Shown here: positions 36,643-47,474 of the stretch, in pieces
How positions within the stretch are numbered: the stretch's first letter is position 1
Layout of the letters: every line of letters begins with the position of its first letter
Assembly: GCA_021792135.1 (NCBI GenBank)
Contig: JAJYVF010000022.1
Span: 1-64,000 of the forward strand
From: Acidobacteriota bacterium
Lineage (GTDB): Bacteria > Acidobacteriota > Terriglobia > Terriglobales > Acidobacteriaceae
Length of the DNA: 64,000 nt
Direction: 5' to 3'
The notes under the pieces: model-generated
What the model saw: only the letters and a program-made list of their open reading frames with translations
The model's database searches: none
Told to the model about the DNA's origin: nothing
Translations under genes and position numbers: made by a program

Positions 36643-36856
36643 GGACAGGGCCTCCAGAGTACTGCGCCCCAGTATCAAACCGGCGATGTCCGCCGAGCAG
36701 TGATACCTGTCACGTTTCACCGGAATGCGATCTTCCACGGGCCGGGAGGCCTGGCCGGGGAACGGTCAGAAGCCTCGCGGGGTACCGCTGTCTGTACGGA
36801 GGCGCAGAGGCAGGCGCCAGGGGGCCGCGATCCGGACTCCGGCGGCGGCGCAGGGG

Positions 36857-42051: not shown

Positions 42052-42771
42052 TCAGCCGCAACTCTCCTCGAGTTCGACAGCGCGCGGAAAGAGGATGTTG
42101 TTCTCGAGGTGGACATGCCGGTGCAGGTCGCGCTCGAATTCCGACAAAGCCTGGAAGAAGCCGCACCAGGTGGGGCAGGCGCCCGCGGGCGGCGCGTAGT
42201 CGTGGCTGAGGCCGCGAATCTCCGCGAGCATCTCGCCGGCCGCATCGTGCTCGGCCATCATGACGCGGATGGGATGTTTCATGGTGCCGACGCAGCCGAG
42301 GGAGGGCGGGCCGCAGGTGGCCATGTTGCGCTCGAGGTTGGTGATCCGGGGAAAGAGGATCATCTCCTCCTTTGCGAGGTGCTGGATGAGATCTTCTCCG
42401 ACCGCTTTGACGAGAATCTGGATACGGGGCAGTTCGGGGTGGTGGTCTCCGTGGCGGGCTACGACCTTCTGCGCGAAGCGCCAGAGGCGCGGAATTTCGC
42501 GGCGGATGTATTCGTGATGGGTGGTCACGATGTGGGTGCAGAGCGATCCCAGCGGGGCTGTGGTCCAGTCGGTTGTGTCGTCAGCGGCGGGCGGGCCGGC
42601 GGCTTCAATGGCCGCCAGCACTTCCGCGGGCTCCAGTGCGCGCTCGGCGCAGGCATGGGCGAGCGGCTTGCGGCCTCCGCAGCAGTAGTCGATACCGAAA
42701 TTTTCGAAGACGCGGATGGAGGCCGGATTTTCCACGGCGATTTCGCGGACGGTGGTCTGTGCGGTGGGCAT
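42052..42771 (-). CDS. ric: Di-iron Fe-S cluster repair protein (RIC/ScdA/YtfE)
   Basis: A 239-residue cytoplasmic protein that restores Fe-S clusters damaged by nitric oxide or peroxide. The N-terminal ScdA domain carries FENFGIDYCCGGRKPLAHAC. The hemerythrin-like part supplies the di-iron ligands: HIVTTHHEYIRREIPRL, HGDHHPEL, DLIQHLAKEEMILFPRI, MMAEHDAAGEMLAEI and HRHVHLENNILFPRAVELEE. Start at 42771 has AGGAGA 8 nt upstream. It is divergent from the CRP-type regulator gene and shares the dyad at 42819-42834. Its promoter is placed so that this dyad is centred at -41.5. Confidence 0.92.
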   Translation of the reverse strand: MPTAQTTVREIAVENPASIRVFENFGIDYCCGGRKPLAHACAERALEPAEVLAAIEAAGPPAADDTTDWTTAPLGSLCTHIVTTHHEYIRREIPRLWRFAQKVVARHGDHHPELPRIQILVKAVGEDLIQHLAKEEMILFPRITNLERNMATCGPPSLGCVGTMKHPIRVMMAEHDAAGEMLAEIRGLSHDYAPPAGACPTWCGFFQALSEFERDLHRHVHLENNILFPRAVELEESCG

Positions 42772-42791: not shown

Positions 42792-42834
42792 AAAGTAAGG
42801 GAGGGGCGGCAGAGGCGCTGCGACTTAAGTCACA
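42792..42834. promoter_or_regulatory. CRP-type dyad and ric promoter between ric and the regulator gene
   Basis: TGCGACTTAAGTCACA (42819-42834) matches the CRP/FNR-type form GTGA-N6-TCAC with one mismatch. On the minus strand TACTTT (42797-42792) is a -10-like hexamer, whose expected start (42785) lies exactly 41.5 bp from the dyad centre, the class II activator position. On the + strand TAGAAT (42850-42855) could serve the regulator gene, which would then be nearly leaderless; there the dyad overlaps the -35 zone, which suggests autorepression. Confidence 0.6.
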
Positions 42835-42862
42835 CCGAGGGGATTTGGTTAGAATTCTCACG

Positions 42863-43561
42863 ATGGCGGAGCAGACGAGTATCGTGACCTCTCTCGCGGC
42901 CGTTCCTCTGTTTTCCGGGCTGTCGCCGGAAGAGCTGCGGCTGCTGGCGGCGCGCTTTGTGCGGAAGCGGTATTCGCAGGGAGAGCTGCTGTTTTCGGAA
43001 GGGGATGCGTGCCGAGGACTGCACATCATCGACAGCGGGCGGCTGCGCATCTTCAAGAGCTCGCCGAGCGGGCGGGAACAGGTGCTGGCGGTGGAAGGAC
43101 CGGGCGGGTCGGTGGCCGAGCTGCCGGTCTTCGATGGCGGGCCCTATCCGGCATCAGTCAGCGCGGTGGAGGACGCACAGGTTCTTTTCATTTCGCGCCC
43201 GGATCTCAGGAACTTTTGTCTGGAGCATCCCGAAGTGGCTCTGAAGATGCTGGCGGTGGTCGGAGCGCGGCTGCGGCGCCTGGTGGGCATTATCGAGGAG
43301 CTTTCGTTTACGACCGTGCGGCAGCGGCTGGTCTCGGCGCTGGTCCGCCTGGCGCAGACAGGGCGGCGCTCGGAGCGGGGAATCGAGTTCGAACTGCCGG
43401 GCACGCACCAGGAGATGGCGCATCAGCTGGGCACGGTGCGCGAGCTGGTGTCGCGCAACCTGATGCGGCTGCAGGCCGAGGGGCTGATTCATGTGGAAGC
43501 GCGCAGCATCGTGGTGCTCGACCTGCATGGACTGACGGCGCTTCTGGAAAGCGGCTCCTGA
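42863..43561 (+). CDS. CRP/FNR-family transcription regulator
   Basis: A 232-residue regulator. The cyclic-nucleotide-like beta-roll spans about 15-130 (LFSGLSPEELRLLAARFVRK, GELLFSEGDACRGLHII, GSVAELPVFDGGPYPASV). A dimer helix follows, then the winged HTH (about 180-220) with the recognition helix TVRELVSRNLMRLQ. R, E and the later R of RE..SR are placed as in CRP R180/E181/R185, which contact GTGA half-sites; the three dyads nearby carry such half-sites. FNR-type N-terminal cysteines are absent. Context (ric, nnrS, norB) suggests an NO-responsive Dnr/NnrR-like role. Confidence 0.85.
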   Translation: MAEQTSIVTSLAAVPLFSGLSPEELRLLAARFVRKRYSQGELLFSEGDACRGLHIIDSGRLRIFKSSPSGREQVLAVEGPGGSVAELPVFDGGPYPASVSAVEDAQVLFISRPDLRNFCLEHPEVALKMLAVVGARLRRLVGIIEELSFTTVRQRLVSALVRLAQTGRRSERGIEFELPGTHQEMAHQLGTVRELVSRNLMRLQAEGLIHVEARSIVVLDLHGLTALLESGS

Positions 43562-43580
43562 GACTTTGTGATGCGTGCGC

Positions 43581-43594
43581 GTGACGAATGTCAC
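43581..43594. promoter_or_regulatory. CRP-type dyad upstream of nnrS
   Basis: GTGACGAATGTCAC is a perfect GTGA-N6-TCAC dyad 46 bp before the nnrS start and 20 bp after the regulator stop. No -10-like hexamer lies at the matching class II distance, so its role is less certain than at the other two sites. Confidence 0.45.
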
Positions 43595-43639
43595 TGCTCC
43601 GGAGGCCGGGTGCGGGGAAGCTGAGAGCAGGAGTCAGTC

Positions 43640-44983
43640 ATGTCCGCCATTGCCGCCGAAGCCGCAGTCTTCCACAGGCCAGAAATCGAGAATCGCGCCG
43701 CTCTGCTGGCGGCGGAGCGCAGAAAGAGCCTTCTGCTGCGGATGTGGATCGGCACGGGCCTCTTCTTTATGGTGCTGCCGGGAACGATCCTGGGGTTCAC
43801 GAATCTGCTGGCGATCAGCGCGCACCATGGGCTGGAGGCCATCTCCCCGGCGTGGATTCAGGCGCACGGCTACTCGCAGGTCTTTGGCTGGATCGGCAGC
43901 TTTGTGCTGGGCATCGGCTTTTATTCGCAGCCGCACACGCGCGCGAACCGCGGCCGGCTTCCGTGGGTCTGCTGGTCGCTGTGGACGGCGGGGCTGGTGC
44001 TGCACTGGCTGGCGGCTGCCTACCTGTGGGAATGGCGGCTGACGCTGCCCGGCTCCGGCTTGCTGCAGTTCGCGGCGATTCTGCTGTTTCTGCATGCGGC
44101 GCGGCAGCACAAGCTGCCCGCAGCCGGCCTGCCGGGGTCGACTCCCAGGCTGCGGCCGCGCATGGAGCCGTGGATGCAGACGGTGCTGGTGAGCAATGGG
44201 GCGCTGCTGCTGGCGCTGGGCATCAGCCTGGTGGAGAGCTTCCGGCTGGCGATGCTGGGCCATGGACCGGCGATTCCACACAATTTCGATCAGAGCTTTC
44301 TGGTGCTGCTGGGCTGGGGATTCATGGCGCCGCTGGTGTGGGGTTTTGGCGCGCGCTGGCTGCCCATTTTCCTCGGGGTCGCGCCGGTGCGGGGAGGGTT
44401 GCTGCAGATCGCCGTTCTGCTGGACCTGCTGGGGGTGGCGCTGGGCATGGCGCACCAGACAAAGCTGGCGGCGCCGTTGCTGGCAGCGGCAGCGATTCTT
44501 GCGGCTGCGGCGATACGGGTCTTCAGCGGGGCTGAGCGTCCGGCGAAAACCATCGGGCTGCATCGCAGCTTTCCGGTATTTCTGCGCATCGCGTTTGGCT
44601 GGTCGATCGCCGCGTCGCTGCTGGGCGTGTGGGCGGCCTGGTCGGATGTGCATGGAGGCATCTGGGGCGGGTCGCGGCATGCGCTGACGGTGGGCTTTGC
44701 GGCGATGATGGTGATGACGGTGGGTCCGCGCATCCTGCCGCATTTTGCCGGCGTGCGGGGCATCCGGAGCCGGAAGCTGATGTTCGCCACGCTGCTGCTT
44801 CTGCTCTTCGGCTGCACGCTGCGTGTGAGCATGGAGCCGCTGGCCTACGAAGGCCTCGCGCCGTTCGCGTGGAAGCTGCTGCCGCTTTCGGGGTGTCTCG
44901 AACTGGGCGCGGTGCTGCTGTTCGCAGTGCAGATGGTGCTTACGTTTGCGCTGGAGCCGAGCATCTTCGCCGACGCTGGCTGA
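43640..44983 (+). CDS. nnrS: NnrS-family haem-copper membrane protein
   Basis: A 447-residue inner-membrane protein with about 12 hydrophobic segments, of the NnrS family linked to NO stress relief. LLLRMWIGTGLFFMVLPGTI begins the membrane part. Conserved family text includes AHGYSQVFGWIGSFVLGIGF, GWGFMAPLVWGFGARWLP, HALTVGFAAMMVMTVGPRIL and PHFAGVRGIRSRKLMF, whose histidines are candidate metal ligands. GCAGGAG stands upstream of ATG 43640. It lies between the regulator and NO reductase genes. Confidence 0.88.
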   Translation: MSAIAAEAAVFHRPEIENRAALLAAERRKSLLLRMWIGTGLFFMVLPGTILGFTNLLAISAHHGLEAISPAWIQAHGYSQVFGWIGSFVLGIGFYSQPHTRANRGRLPWVCWSLWTAGLVLHWLAAAYLWEWRLTLPGSGLLQFAAILLFLHAARQHKLPAAGLPGSTPRLRPRMEPWMQTVLVSNGALLLALGISLVESFRLAMLGHGPAIPHNFDQSFLVLLGWGFMAPLVWGFGARWLPIFLGVAPVRGGLLQIAVLLDLLGVALGMAHQTKLAAPLLAAAAILAAAAIRVFSGAERPAKTIGLHRSFPVFLRIAFGWSIAASLLGVWAAWSDVHGGIWGGSRHALTVGFAAMMVMTVGPRILPHFAGVRGIRSRKLMFATLLLLLFGCTLRVSMEPLAYEGLAPFAWKLLPLSGCLELGAVLLFAVQMVLTFALEPSIFADAG

Positions 44984-45103
44984 GCGGGCCGGAGCCGCAT
45001 CCTGAGGGGATTGCCCTTTCGGCATTCCTGCTGTGCGATCCTGGTCATCTTCGCCGCGCCGTGTGCGACCCGATGATGACACGAAGCAACGGGCTCCGCA
45101 GCC

Positions 45104-45153
45104 TGTGACTTAAGTCCCTGCACCATCGATTTGCAATCGCTACTGTGACTACA
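45104..45153 (+). promoter_or_regulatory. Class II CRP-type promoter of norB
   Basis: TGTGACTTAAGTCCCT (45104-45119) shares the ten-base palindrome GACTTAAGTC with the site before ric. TACTGT (45141-45146) is -10-like; the start expected 7 nt further (45153) is exactly 41.5 bp from the dyad centre. norB ATG is at 45189. Confidence 0.6.
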
Positions 45154-45188: not shown

Positions 45189-47474
45189 ATGACTTATAAG
45201 CGCTACTGGATGGCTCTGGCCATCGTGATTGCGGGATCGTTCGCCGTTCTCGGCAGTGTGGGGCGGAAGATGATCAGCGAGGCTCCGCCGCTCCCCGACG
45301 TTTACAGCACAGACGGCCATTTGCTCTTCACCGGCCCGACCATCACGGATGGACAGGGGGTGTGGCAGTCCATCGGAGGGCAGGAGATTGGCACGGTGTG
45401 GGGCCATGGCGCTTACCTGGCTCCTGACTGGACGGCGGACTGGCTGCACCGCGAAAGCCTGTTTCTGCTGGAGCGGTGGGCGCAGCGCGACGGCGCGGCG
45501 AGCTTTGCGGCGCTGGGGCCGGATCAGCAGGCTGTGCTGAAGGCACGGCTGATCCGTACGATGCGGAGAAACACTTACGATCCGGTCACCCGCCGCATTG
45601 TCGTGAGCGACGACACGGCGGCGGCATTCCAGCATCTGGCGGCCTATTACGCCGATGTTTTCAGCAAGGGCCGCAGCGAGTATGCCATCCCCGCCGGGGC
45701 ACTGAGAGATCCTGCGAAGCTCCAGCAGATGGCCGCGTTTTTCTGGTGGACCTCCTGGGCGGCGCACACCGACCGGTCGGGCAGCAGCATCACCTACACG
45801 AACAACTGGCCGCATGAGCCGCTGGTGGCCAATGCTCCGCCGCCCTCGGCGATTCTGTGGAGCATCCTGAGCTTCGTCTTTCTGCTGGCGGGGATCGGCG
45901 GACTGGTGTGGTGGTACGGGTCGCAGGAGAAGCCGGATTTTCACCCGGCATTTCCCGCCCGAGATCCTTTTCTGAGCCTGAAGGCGACGCCCAGCCAGCG
46001 AGCCACGATGAAGTACTTCTTCGTGGTGGTGGCGCTGTGGGGCGTGCAGATTGCCATGGGCGCGCTGACGGCGCACTACGGTGTGGAGGGCGGAGGCTTC
46101 TACGGCATCCCGCTGGACAAGATTCTTCCCTACGCGGTTACGCGCACCTGGCACCTGCAGCTGGCGATTTTCTGGATCGCGACCTCATGGCTGGCGACCG
46201 GACTCTATGTAGCTCCGGCGGTGAGCGGCCATGAGCCGAAAGGCCAGCGGCTGGGCGTGAATGCGCTCTTCGGGGCGCTGGTGCTGGTGGTAGGCGGATC
46301 GCTGGTGGGGGAATGGGCGGGTATTGAGCAGAAGCTGGGGAACCTGTGGTTCTGGTTCGGCAGCCAGGGTTACGAGTACGTGGACCTCGGGCGTTTCTGG
46401 CAGATTCTGCTGTTCGTGGGACTGCTGCTGTGGCTGTTTCTGATGGTCCGCGCGCTGAAACCCGCCCTGGTGCGCAGCAGCGAGAGCCGTCCGCTAATGG
46501 TGCTGTTCCTCATCTCGAGCATTGCCATCCCGCTCTTCTATGCGGCGGGGCTGATGTACGGGCAGCGGAGCCAGCTGGTGACCGCCGAGTACTGGCGCTG
46601 GTGGGTGGTTCACCTGTGGGTGGAGGGTTTCTTCGAGGTATTTGCCACCGTGGTGATTGCATTTCTCTTCACGCGGCTGAACCTGCTGGAGATTCGCTCG
46701 GCGACGCGCGCGGTGCTGTTCTCGACGACGATCTTTCTCTCGGGAGGCATCATCGGCACCTTCCATCATCTCTACTTCGCAGGATCGACCCCGGCGGTGA
46801 TTGCGCTGGGAGCGGTCTTCAGCGCGCTGGAGGTGGTGCCGCTGACGCTGGTTGGTTACGAAGCCTGGGAGAATATCCGGCTGGCTCGGGGCAGCAGCGA
46901 AGCGCCGTGGGTGGCCAACTACAAATGGCCCATCTACTTTTTTGTCGCGGTGGCCTTCTGGAACATGGTGGGCGCGGGGCTGTTCGGATTCCTGATCAAT
47001 CCGCCCGTCGCGCTCTACTACATGCAGGGGCTGAACCTGACTCCGGTCCACGGACACACGGCGCTCTTCGGCGTGTACGGGATGCTCGGGCTGGGGCTGA
47101 CGCTCTTCTGCCTGCGGGCGATCCGGCCCGGGATGCAGTGGAAGGATCGTCCGCTGAAGGTGGCCTTCTGGCTGCTCAACGTGGGGCTGACCCTGATGGT
47201 AGTGATCAGCATGCTGCCGATCGGGATTCTGCAGGCGATGGCCTCCATCGAGCAGGGTACCTGGTATGCGCGCTCGGCGGTGTTCATGCAGACGCCGCTG
47301 ATGCAGTTCCTGCGCTGGATGCGGGTTCCCGGGGACGTGCTGTTCGCAGTGGGGGCGGCGGTTCTGGGGTTGTTCGTGATGGGGCTGCTGACGGGGCACT
47401 CGTATGATCGCTCGGCCGATATCGGGTCTGCGGATGCCAGCGAGAAAGAGCAGATGCTGGTGGCGGGGGACTGA
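45189..47474 (+). CDS. norB: Quinol-dependent nitric oxide reductase (qNor)
   Basis: A 761-residue inner-membrane enzyme reducing 2 NO to N2O with electrons from quinol. A long N-terminal extension (about 1-215) with a fused NorC-like domain but no CxxCH identifies the single-subunit quinol type. The haem-copper-oxidase-like core has the histidine ligands in TRTWHLQLAIFWIATSW, VVHLWVEGFFEVFATVVIAF (with the glutamate near the non-haem iron), GTFHHLYFAG and TPVHGHTALFGVYGMLGLGL. AGAGGAA precedes the start. A CRP-type dyad centred at -41.5 suggests activation. Confidence 0.94.
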   Translation: MTYKRYWMALAIVIAGSFAVLGSVGRKMISEAPPLPDVYSTDGHLLFTGPTITDGQGVWQSIGGQEIGTVWGHGAYLAPDWTADWLHRESLFLLERWAQRDGAASFAALGPDQQAVLKARLIRTMRRNTYDPVTRRIVVSDDTAAAFQHLAAYYADVFSKGRSEYAIPAGALRDPAKLQQMAAFFWWTSWAAHTDRSGSSITYTNNWPHEPLVANAPPPSAILWSILSFVFLLAGIGGLVWWYGSQEKPDFHPAFPARDPFLSLKATPSQRATMKYFFVVVALWGVQIAMGALTAHYGVEGGGFYGIPLDKILPYAVTRTWHLQLAIFWIATSWLATGLYVAPAVSGHEPKGQRLGVNALFGALVLVVGGSLVGEWAGIEQKLGNLWFWFGSQGYEYVDLGRFWQILLFVGLLLWLFLMVRALKPALVRSSESRPLMVLFLISSIAIPLFYAAGLMYGQRSQLVTAEYWRWWVVHLWVEGFFEVFATVVIAFLFTRLNLLEIRSATRAVLFSTTIFLSGGIIGTFHHLYFAGSTPAVIALGAVFSALEVVPLTLVGYEAWENIRLARGSSEAPWVANYKWPIYFFVAVAFWNMVGAGLFGFLINPPVALYYMQGLNLTPVHGHTALFGVYGMLGLGLTLFCLRAIRPGMQWKDRPLKVAFWLLNVGLTLMVVISMLPIGILQAMASIEQGTWYARSAVFMQTPLMQFLRWMRVPGDVLFAVGAAVLGLFVMGLLTGHSYDRSADIGSADASEKEQMLVAGD

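Follow-up and report, generated by a model that had tools for sequence, protein, structure and literature searches.

At class II promoters, the operator of the activator is centred at position -41.5. The described systems that come closest to the one reported here all belong to the CRP/FNR family. DNR and NnrR of Proteobacteria are nitric oxide (NO)-responsive activators of nor genes (PMC1274295; PMC5748679), and DnrT of Thermus is a CRP-type activator needed at the nar, nrc and NO-reductase promoters (PMC5748679; PMC6282519). HcpR of Desulfovibrio and HcpR1 of other delta-proteobacteria and cyanobacteria are described as lacking the FNR cysteine motif; hcp, ferredoxin-like genes and, in a cyanobacterium, norB are given as their targets, and wTGTGAnnnnnnTCACAw and wyTTGACnnnnGTCAArw as their motifs (PMC1274295), with TGTGA-N6-TCACA being bound by Desulfovibrio HcpR (PMC1274295; PMC5701242). 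Here we describe a locus in a 64,000-nucleotide stretch (the window) of a contig from a 77-contig, 5.1 Mb Acidobacteriaceae genome, where ric (minus strand) and the gene of a CRP/FNR-type regulator (plus strand) are divergent, and an NnrS-like gene and then norB follow downstream of the regulator. We consider it very probable that this is a local NO-defence regulon of Acidobacteriota, in which the regulator combines class II activation of its targets with autorepression.

Results

The significance of the putative operators rests on the conservation, in relatives, of the site together with its distance to a promoter hexamer. Two sets of sequences were compared: 151 genomes of the class, searched for relatives of the regulator and for ric (both at E ≤ 1e-30), and named loci, which are the best 80 of 411 found. 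The named loci and 80 class loci (160 loci, 1.99 Mb) contain, when identical sites are merged, 336 distinct sites of the form TGAC-N4-GTY-N3-G. We define the offset as the number of bases from the dyad centre to the start of the hexamer, so that a hexamer at -12 to -7 has offset 29 and places the centre at -41.5. TANNNT occurs at offset 29 in 124 of these sites and at offset 30 in 29; the next highest offset is 14, with 11 sites and the geometry of the regulator's own promoter, and all others have at most 4. For the class-wide ric promoters, 47 of 64 copies were used (core match of at least 7; G003:C38, not of the motif's form, was removed by hand), and YANNNT stands at offset 29 in 32 and at offset 30 in 3 of them, with no more than 2 at each other offset from 12 to 39. 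TANNNT at offset 29 is likewise found in 53 of 71 named-locus ric promoters, in 16 of 20 norB promoters of relatives that carry a site (the other offset being 30, in 4/20) and in 7 of 14 nnrS sites of close relatives.

The presence of the operator was counted in the named loci as at least 7 of 8 core letters within 300 bp upstream, with the reversed motif as control. It precedes ric in 71/78 copies (control 13/78), norB in 20/25, mostly as GTGAC(N)4GTCCCTGC (control 3/25), and the regulator in 59/80 loci (control 5/80). Upstream of nnrS it was found in 15/46 copies against 8/46 for the control, which marks a weak site. Hence the dyads are conserved with their spacing at ric and norB, and these relatives support what a first-pass annotation of the window had proposed, i.e. 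class II spacing at both genes with a CRP/FNR-type regulator beside NO-defence genes; the refuting outcome it had named, dyads not conserved in related genomes, was not observed. nnrS was rejected as a third general class II target since the count fails in distant relatives. Given the weak site, nnrS elsewhere is probably mostly read through from an upstream gene.

Relatives of the regulator occur in 78/151 class genomes and ric in 54/151 (64 copies); loci around the regulator often hold ric, nnrS or norB alongside, and 72 of the 80 named loci do so. The closest named records among these best 80 of 411 loci come from genomes of Acidobacteria and Acidobacteriaceae (identity up to 93%, in JAJYZK010000058.1), cultured members such as Occallatibacter savannae and Acidipila rosea included. 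In Occallatibacter savannae AB23 (L281) the regulator has its operator, and ric has both an operator and TACCGT at offset 29; in Acidipila rosea DSM 103428 (L289) ric is divergent and its site is weaker, with 6 of 8 letters. Neither of these two stretches was found to contain norB. A wider search of 297 genomes of the phylum (E ≤ 1e-50) gave regulator matches in 33, of which 19 lie outside the class; among 20 loci read outside the class, a few carry this site and a hexamer at the proper distance, in one case (L311) upstream of ric. The association of dyad and regulator was evaluated on the 59 of 64 ric copies, near full length, in which the start of ric is covered. The dyad is present in 41/49 copies from genomes with a regulator relative of at least 48% identity, in 4/5 where the relative has 40-47%, and in 2/5 where none was found. 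Regulator homologues with an in-frame stop were seen in L320, L321 and L047, possibly decaying copies or assembly errors. Paired operator-like sites, 22-44 bp apart, occur in L070, L072, L075, L079, L081 and L086 and perhaps reflect two-site activation.

The form of the operator was derived from 105 sites before ric, norB and nnrS, taking only sites with at least 7 of 8 letters and nnrS copies of at least 60% identity. In this alignment the operator reads as an asymmetric GTGAC-N4-GTYnY-TG(C). The distal half GTGAC is kept in 103, 94, 104, 105 and 104 of 105 sites by position, and the proximal half GTYnC shows G in 105, T in 104, C in 73 or T in 32, a variable base and C in 104; T follows in 84/105 and then G in 101/105. 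The base preceding GTGAC is A in 72/105, so that the outer T typical of CRP sites is missing. In the -41.5 frame the right-edge C-T-G falls at -35 to -33, with 17 bp from the would-be hexamer to the -10 box, and by the rules of E. coli this YTG is a probable relic of a -35 element. The plain CRP dyad first assumed for this DNA is thus replaced by an asymmetric operator, whereas the accompanying remark that the motif differs from TTGAT-N4-ATCAA agrees with the inner base, which is C and not T in 104/105. In the class genomes the ric operator recurs as GTGACTTTAGTCACTGC and variants.

Other forms of the motif were also tried. A scan of the 80 class loci for plain TGTGA-N6-TCACA was rejected, as it did not separate the regulator promoters (at least 8 letters in 7/80 against 3/80 for the control); over these loci as a whole, the same pattern gave 39 sites with at least 9 of 10 letters against 7 for the reversed pattern, and 5 against 0 with all 10. 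The core TGAC-N4-GTCA performed better for ric, with 7-8 letters in 29/30 copies against 8/30 in the control. TGAC-N4-GTCA sites are present in Thermus plasmid loci too, several of them as TTGAC.

The genes, operators and predicted promoters of the window are listed in Table 1. The three GTGA-N6-TCAC dyads of the first-pass annotation all lie where it had placed them and two of them share GACTTAAGTC, but only operator 2 is exact; operators 1 and 3 have one mismatch each, GCGA (which reads TCGC on the ric strand) in the former and TCCC in the latter. Direct reading also confirms the hexamers of ric and norB, whose predicted starts are exactly 41.5 bp from the dyad centres. The NnrS-like gene has a weak hexamer, GAAGCT, at offset 29, and composite sites, i.e. 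half-motif plus TANNNT at offset 28-30, occur in the window exactly twice, at ric and norB. Within the window alone the dyad pattern is no more than chance: two exact matches were observed (the second at position 36700) against 0.66 expected, and 14 of 100 shuffles reach at least two. In the source genome, TGTGACTTAAGTCACA with up to 3 mismatches is found at 15 places against 11 for the reversed control. The ric/regulator site matches best of all, being the only one with 1 mismatch; 2 mismatches are found at four places, among them the norB site and a site before a second copy of the regulator. RTGACNNNNGTCAY matches 27 places against 12 for its reversed control, and a third motif count gave 37 against 24. 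All three counts exceed their controls only modestly, so that the motif by itself does not suffice to list the regulon.

Table 1. Coordinates of genes, operators and predicted promoter elements in the window
Feature	Position	Strand	Evidence or remark
ric, di-iron iron-sulfur-cluster repair protein, YtfE/ScdA type	42055..42771	-	TIGR03652, 233.6 bits (cut-off 204.7); PF01814 and PF04405
CRP/FNR-family regulator, 232 amino acids	42863..43561 with stop codon (43558 without)	+	PF00027, PF13545, PF00325
NnrS-like membrane protein	43640..44983	+	Similarity to NnrS paralogue of the same genome
norB, single-subunit quinol-type nitric oxide reductase (qNor)	45189..47474	+	PF22085, 4.3e-65; PF00115, 4.1e-60
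Operator 1, TGCGACTTAAGTCACA	42819..42834, centre 42826.5		Between ric and regulator; read directly
Operator 2, GTGACGAATGTCAC	43581..43594, centre 43587.5	+	Upstream of NnrS-like gene; read directly
Operator 3, TGTGACTTAAGTCCCT	45104..45119, centre 45111.5	+	Putative class II site of norB; read directly
Predicted -10 box of ric, TACTTT	42797-42792	-	Predicted start 42785; dyad centre at -41.5
Predicted -10 box of norB, TACTGT	45141..45146	+	Predicted start 45153; dyad centre at -41.5
Predicted -10 box of regulator, TAGAAT	42850..42855	+	Seven bases, then ATG at 42863

The NnrS-like protein of the window has no Pfam match of its own, even at E ≤ 10. It is 45% identical over 426 aligned positions to a protein of the same genome that matches the NnrS family PF05940 (1.4e-10). 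In the source genome an NnrS paralogue adjoins a perfect operator (C9:5280). Neither hcp nor nirK was found there at E ≤ 1e-20, and the system of this genome therefore appears to serve detoxification. On C27 (L050:8674-10187) lies another ric-regulator pair, which has an operator of the same type; its regulator is 82% identical, the hexamer at offset 29 is missing from its ric promoter, and ORFs assigned by eye as hemerythrin-like, cupin and AhpD-like adjoin it. The genome holds three further relatives of the regulator, so that two are close (82% and 45% identity) and two are distant (26% and 25%).

The regulator matches PF00027 (84.4 bits), PF13545 (61.2 bits) and PF00325 (24.7 bits), all above cut-off, and from this architecture is assigned to the CRP/FNR family, with a predicted cNMP-binding-type sensor domain and a Crp-type winged helix. 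None of the NCBIfam models scores above its cut-off on this protein, and its AlphaFold2 model has a pLDDT of 91.4. The recognition helix is GTVRELVSR. Arg193, Glu194, Ser197 and Arg198 are kept in 145/145 relatives of at least 50% identity (some genomes being twice in the set), in keeping with the earlier suggestion that an RE..SR helix suits the GTGA half-site. In the CRP/FNR family, Arg180 correlates with G3 and Glu181 with A6 of the operator (PMC1274295), and the RE helix with its GTGA half-site obeys this rule. RD..SR replaces RE..SR in a sub-group of loci (L118, L125, L126, L312 and L315, also L119, L121 and L129), some promoters of which carry YGAC-N4-GTC sites with GTCGT or CGAC halves; this sub-group is a natural test of the Glu181 rule.

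As the signal of the regulator, NO or a closely related reactive nitrogen species is the most likely candidate. Pro96 and Ala97, invariant in 59/59 relatives, align with the cAMP-binding Arg82-Ser83 of E. coli CRP; because of this replacement, cAMP is unlikely as the signal. The score of the cAMP-CRP equivalog model is 70.3 bits against a cut-off of 266. The Fnr model reaches 51.2 bits against a cut-off of 228, Cys50 and Cys119 are the only conserved cysteines, and the regulator does not appear to be an FNR with its iron-sulfur cysteine set. In the relatives of at least 50% identity, Cys50 is kept in 142/145, Cys119 in 141/145 and His122 in 134/145; no His or Met column among these 145 exceeds 95%, His122 being the best. 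HcpR of P. gingivalis is reported to use Met68 as a haem axial ligand (PMC12750200), and haem held in this manner by an invariant His or Met is not supported by the alignment. Among relatives of 36-45% identity, Cys119 is found in 19/25 and Cys50 in 6/25, and given this group at least Cys119 may be structural; the DnrT-type protein of Thermus has neither. We offer only tentatively, as a doubtful possibility, that the family is a separate NO-sensing lineage of Acidobacteriota that uses thiols and not His/Met-ligated haem, through Cys50 and Cys119 with His122 completing a CxxH, these three being the NO-reactive residues with the highest conservation. If so, the two cysteines together would bind iron, ligate a haem or undergo direct nitrosation.

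The regulator's own promoter has a different geometry. Regulator operators of the GCAGTGAC type in the named loci have TANNNT at offset 12-15 in 32/33, which places the dyad near -24 to -28, and in the divergent ric-regulator loci that resemble the window the hexamer is at offset 23-25 in 13/17, placing it near -35 to -38. In most of these promoters an in-frame start codon follows the -10 box after 6 or 7 bases, and a leaderless mRNA is therefore predicted. Dyad positions of about -24 to -38 suit repression; therefore, the regulator probably represses itself, most likely from a leaderless transcript. In the window, operator 1 would probably serve as a class II site for ric leftward; rightward, with its centre at about -35.5, it would probably act in repression of the regulator by itself, and a single dyad would probably switch on the defence while placing its activator under negative feedback.

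The composite search, with half-motif and TANNNT at offset 29-30, was extended to the 160 loci, i.e. to regulator neighbourhoods. It yields 156 unmerged sites, compared with 0, 1, 0 and 3 at four control offset pairs. They are positioned before ric (74), norB (21), nnrS (2) and other ORFs (51), and 8 precede none. Ten of the 51 other targets were checked and the rest were named by eye or remain unnamed. Scores above cut-off were obtained for the hybrid cluster protein Hcp (TIGR01703, 727 bits), L-lactate dehydrogenase (TIGR01771), a radical SAM protein (TIGR04053) and the copper nitrite reductase nirK (TIGR02376). A NapH-like ferredoxin is below cut-off, and an NnrS protein has a hybrid-cluster-associated domain just below it; a YwiC-like protein, two cupins (one with DUF2249) and a ferredoxin complete the ten. 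An Hcp-like N-terminus is seen in 10/51 (by eye, one checked). By these assignments, the targets outside the window seem to be largely NO-related.

Three kinds of target are noted separately. An L-lactate dehydrogenase gene stands behind a composite site near the regulator at L267:6544-7491 and also in L254, L283 and L290 (one of four checked). NO-inducible lactate dehydrogenase is known in other organisms, and its gene behind the operator may provide for fermentation when NO blocks respiration. A TIGR04053-like radical SAM gene is the target in L081, L086, L115 and L120 (one of four checked), and a gene of this type adjoins nitrite reductase in Thermus (L356:15281-16408), which suggests a role for the protein in nitrogen-oxide metabolism. 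Finally, a regulator ORF that looks PAS-LuxR-like by eye has a composite site upstream in L050 (L050:6192-6845, minus strand; distance 69 bp) and in L217 and is a possible second-tier regulator.

Discussion

We propose that a dimer of the regulator would bind GTGAC-N4-GTYnY-TG(C) centred at -41.5, overlap the -35 region and act as a class II activator at ric and norB, and probably in the same way at the NnrS-like gene. The YTG at the downstream edge of the operator occupies the place of the -35 TTG, so that the sigma factor probably keeps a partial -35 contact. At its own promoter, with the operator at about -24 to -38 and the -10 box 6-7 bases before the start codon, the same protein would repress itself, the trigger most likely being NO or a related nitrogen species.

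Several points weigh against this proposal. The -10 and -35 elements were placed by the sigma-70 rules of E. coli. Because the genomes are related, the counts cannot be treated as independent, and some genomes occur in both the anonymous and the named set. As described above, nnrS has a weak site, and for 22 of the 80 named regulators the 250 bp upstream contain no dyad with 7/8 letters. The link between regulator and site is correlative, as their presence goes together but imperfectly, and a ric dyad with no regulator found is seen in G142, where the contig ends 236 bp upstream of ric, and in G082. Moreover, the four paralogues of the source genome (82%, 45%, 26% and 25%) may bind the same sites.

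The last point leads to the alternative that another protein, either a paralogue or a repressor of the NsrR type, binds the sites in place of the adjacent regulator. The 82% and 45% paralogues would be candidates, the latter lying 2.5 kb from the perfect site C9:5280, and G082 has the dyad with no regulator found. In Thermus, NsrR but not DnrT gave gel shifts, and the palindrome CTTGACCNNGGTCATGG at the nor/nir promoters was attributed to NsrR; on the nrc promoter, however, this palindrome and the DnrT footprint overlap in part (PMC5748679). Nevertheless, a constant spacing of -41.5 is what CRP/FNR activators show, the site is also present in the promoter of the regulator itself, and RE..SR matches the bases, for which reasons we regard another binding protein as unlikely.

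The regulator could also be a global CRP-like one, responding to cAMP or redox, with NO genes merely among its targets. The half-site GTGA is indeed that of CRP, the modest RTGACNNNNGTCAY excess in the source genome leaves room for other targets, and the closest solved structures by sequence are 4cyd, 4byy and 3d0s (profile E 6e-41 to 1e-40; DNR, 3dkw, 1.1e-29), which are actinobacterial CRP/GlxR proteins. We consider such a regulator rather improbable, because the composite-site targets, within regulator neighbourhoods and including L-lactate dehydrogenase and unclear genes, are largely NO or nitrogen-oxide genes, and because of the invariant Pro96-Ala97. Chance dyads in a GC-rich genome, with the -41.5 fit arising from selective reading, would accommodate the dyad count of the window alone but not the concentration of hexamers at offsets 29 and 30 in relatives, and have a negligible probability.

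The local regulon proposed here suggests an undescribed regulator of NO defence in a widespread phylum. Acidobacteria are abundant soil organisms, and strains of subdivisions 1 and 3 without nitrate or nitrite reductases carry NO reductase genes, which were read there as serving NO detoxification (PMC5900883). Among the open-licence papers listed in literature searches, none turned up that describes a regulator of these genes, or this regulon, in Acidobacteria, which is no proof of absence. The operator together with its spacing provides a sharp sequence tool for listing the regulon in acidobacterial genomes, the system offers a further test of the R180/E181 base-recognition rule, and the sensor chemistry becomes testable through the two cysteines.

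The likeness to the described systems differs from one to another. With the class II promoters of E. coli CRP the system has the GTGA half-site and the centre at -41.5 in common; it differs in that the outer T/A is not conserved, the inner C and G are nearly obligatory and the -35-like YTG is conserved, and the cAMP pocket residues of CRP are not kept. DNR is a weaker sequence match to the regulator than the best CRP/GlxR-type chains, and differs from the acidobacterial system in its motif TTGATnnnnATCAA (PMC1274295) and in sensing by haem (PMC5748679).

The closest named relative found is the DnrT-type protein of Thermus, with 39% identity over 221 aligned positions. This plasmid protein, recorded as a Crp/Fnr regulator, is presumably DnrT itself, to judge from its position beside nar and behind a GAF-domain gene. 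Its helix is PE..SR, unlike the acidobacterial RE..SR, and DnrT activates its own operon; CTTGACCNNGGTCATGG begins with TTGAC, carrying the T expected with a Pro-Glu helix.

In function, the HcpR and DNR regulons work like the acidobacterial one. The motif had been taken as a hint of a distinct lineage; it is indeed not TTGAT-N4-ATCAA, but HcpR of Desulfovibrio already provides an example of an NO regulator with a CRP-like motif. By sequence, HcpR of P. gingivalis (9day) is a distant match (E 6.6e-10), and the likeness to HcpR1 concerns motif and targets. The main targets are ric, nnrS and norB, unlike those of HcpR; hcp, a defining HcpR target, is preceded by a composite site in relatives and is missing from the source genome at E ≤ 1e-20. 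The acidobacterial operator, which has no outer T/A, lies between the two HcpR motifs and matches neither exactly.

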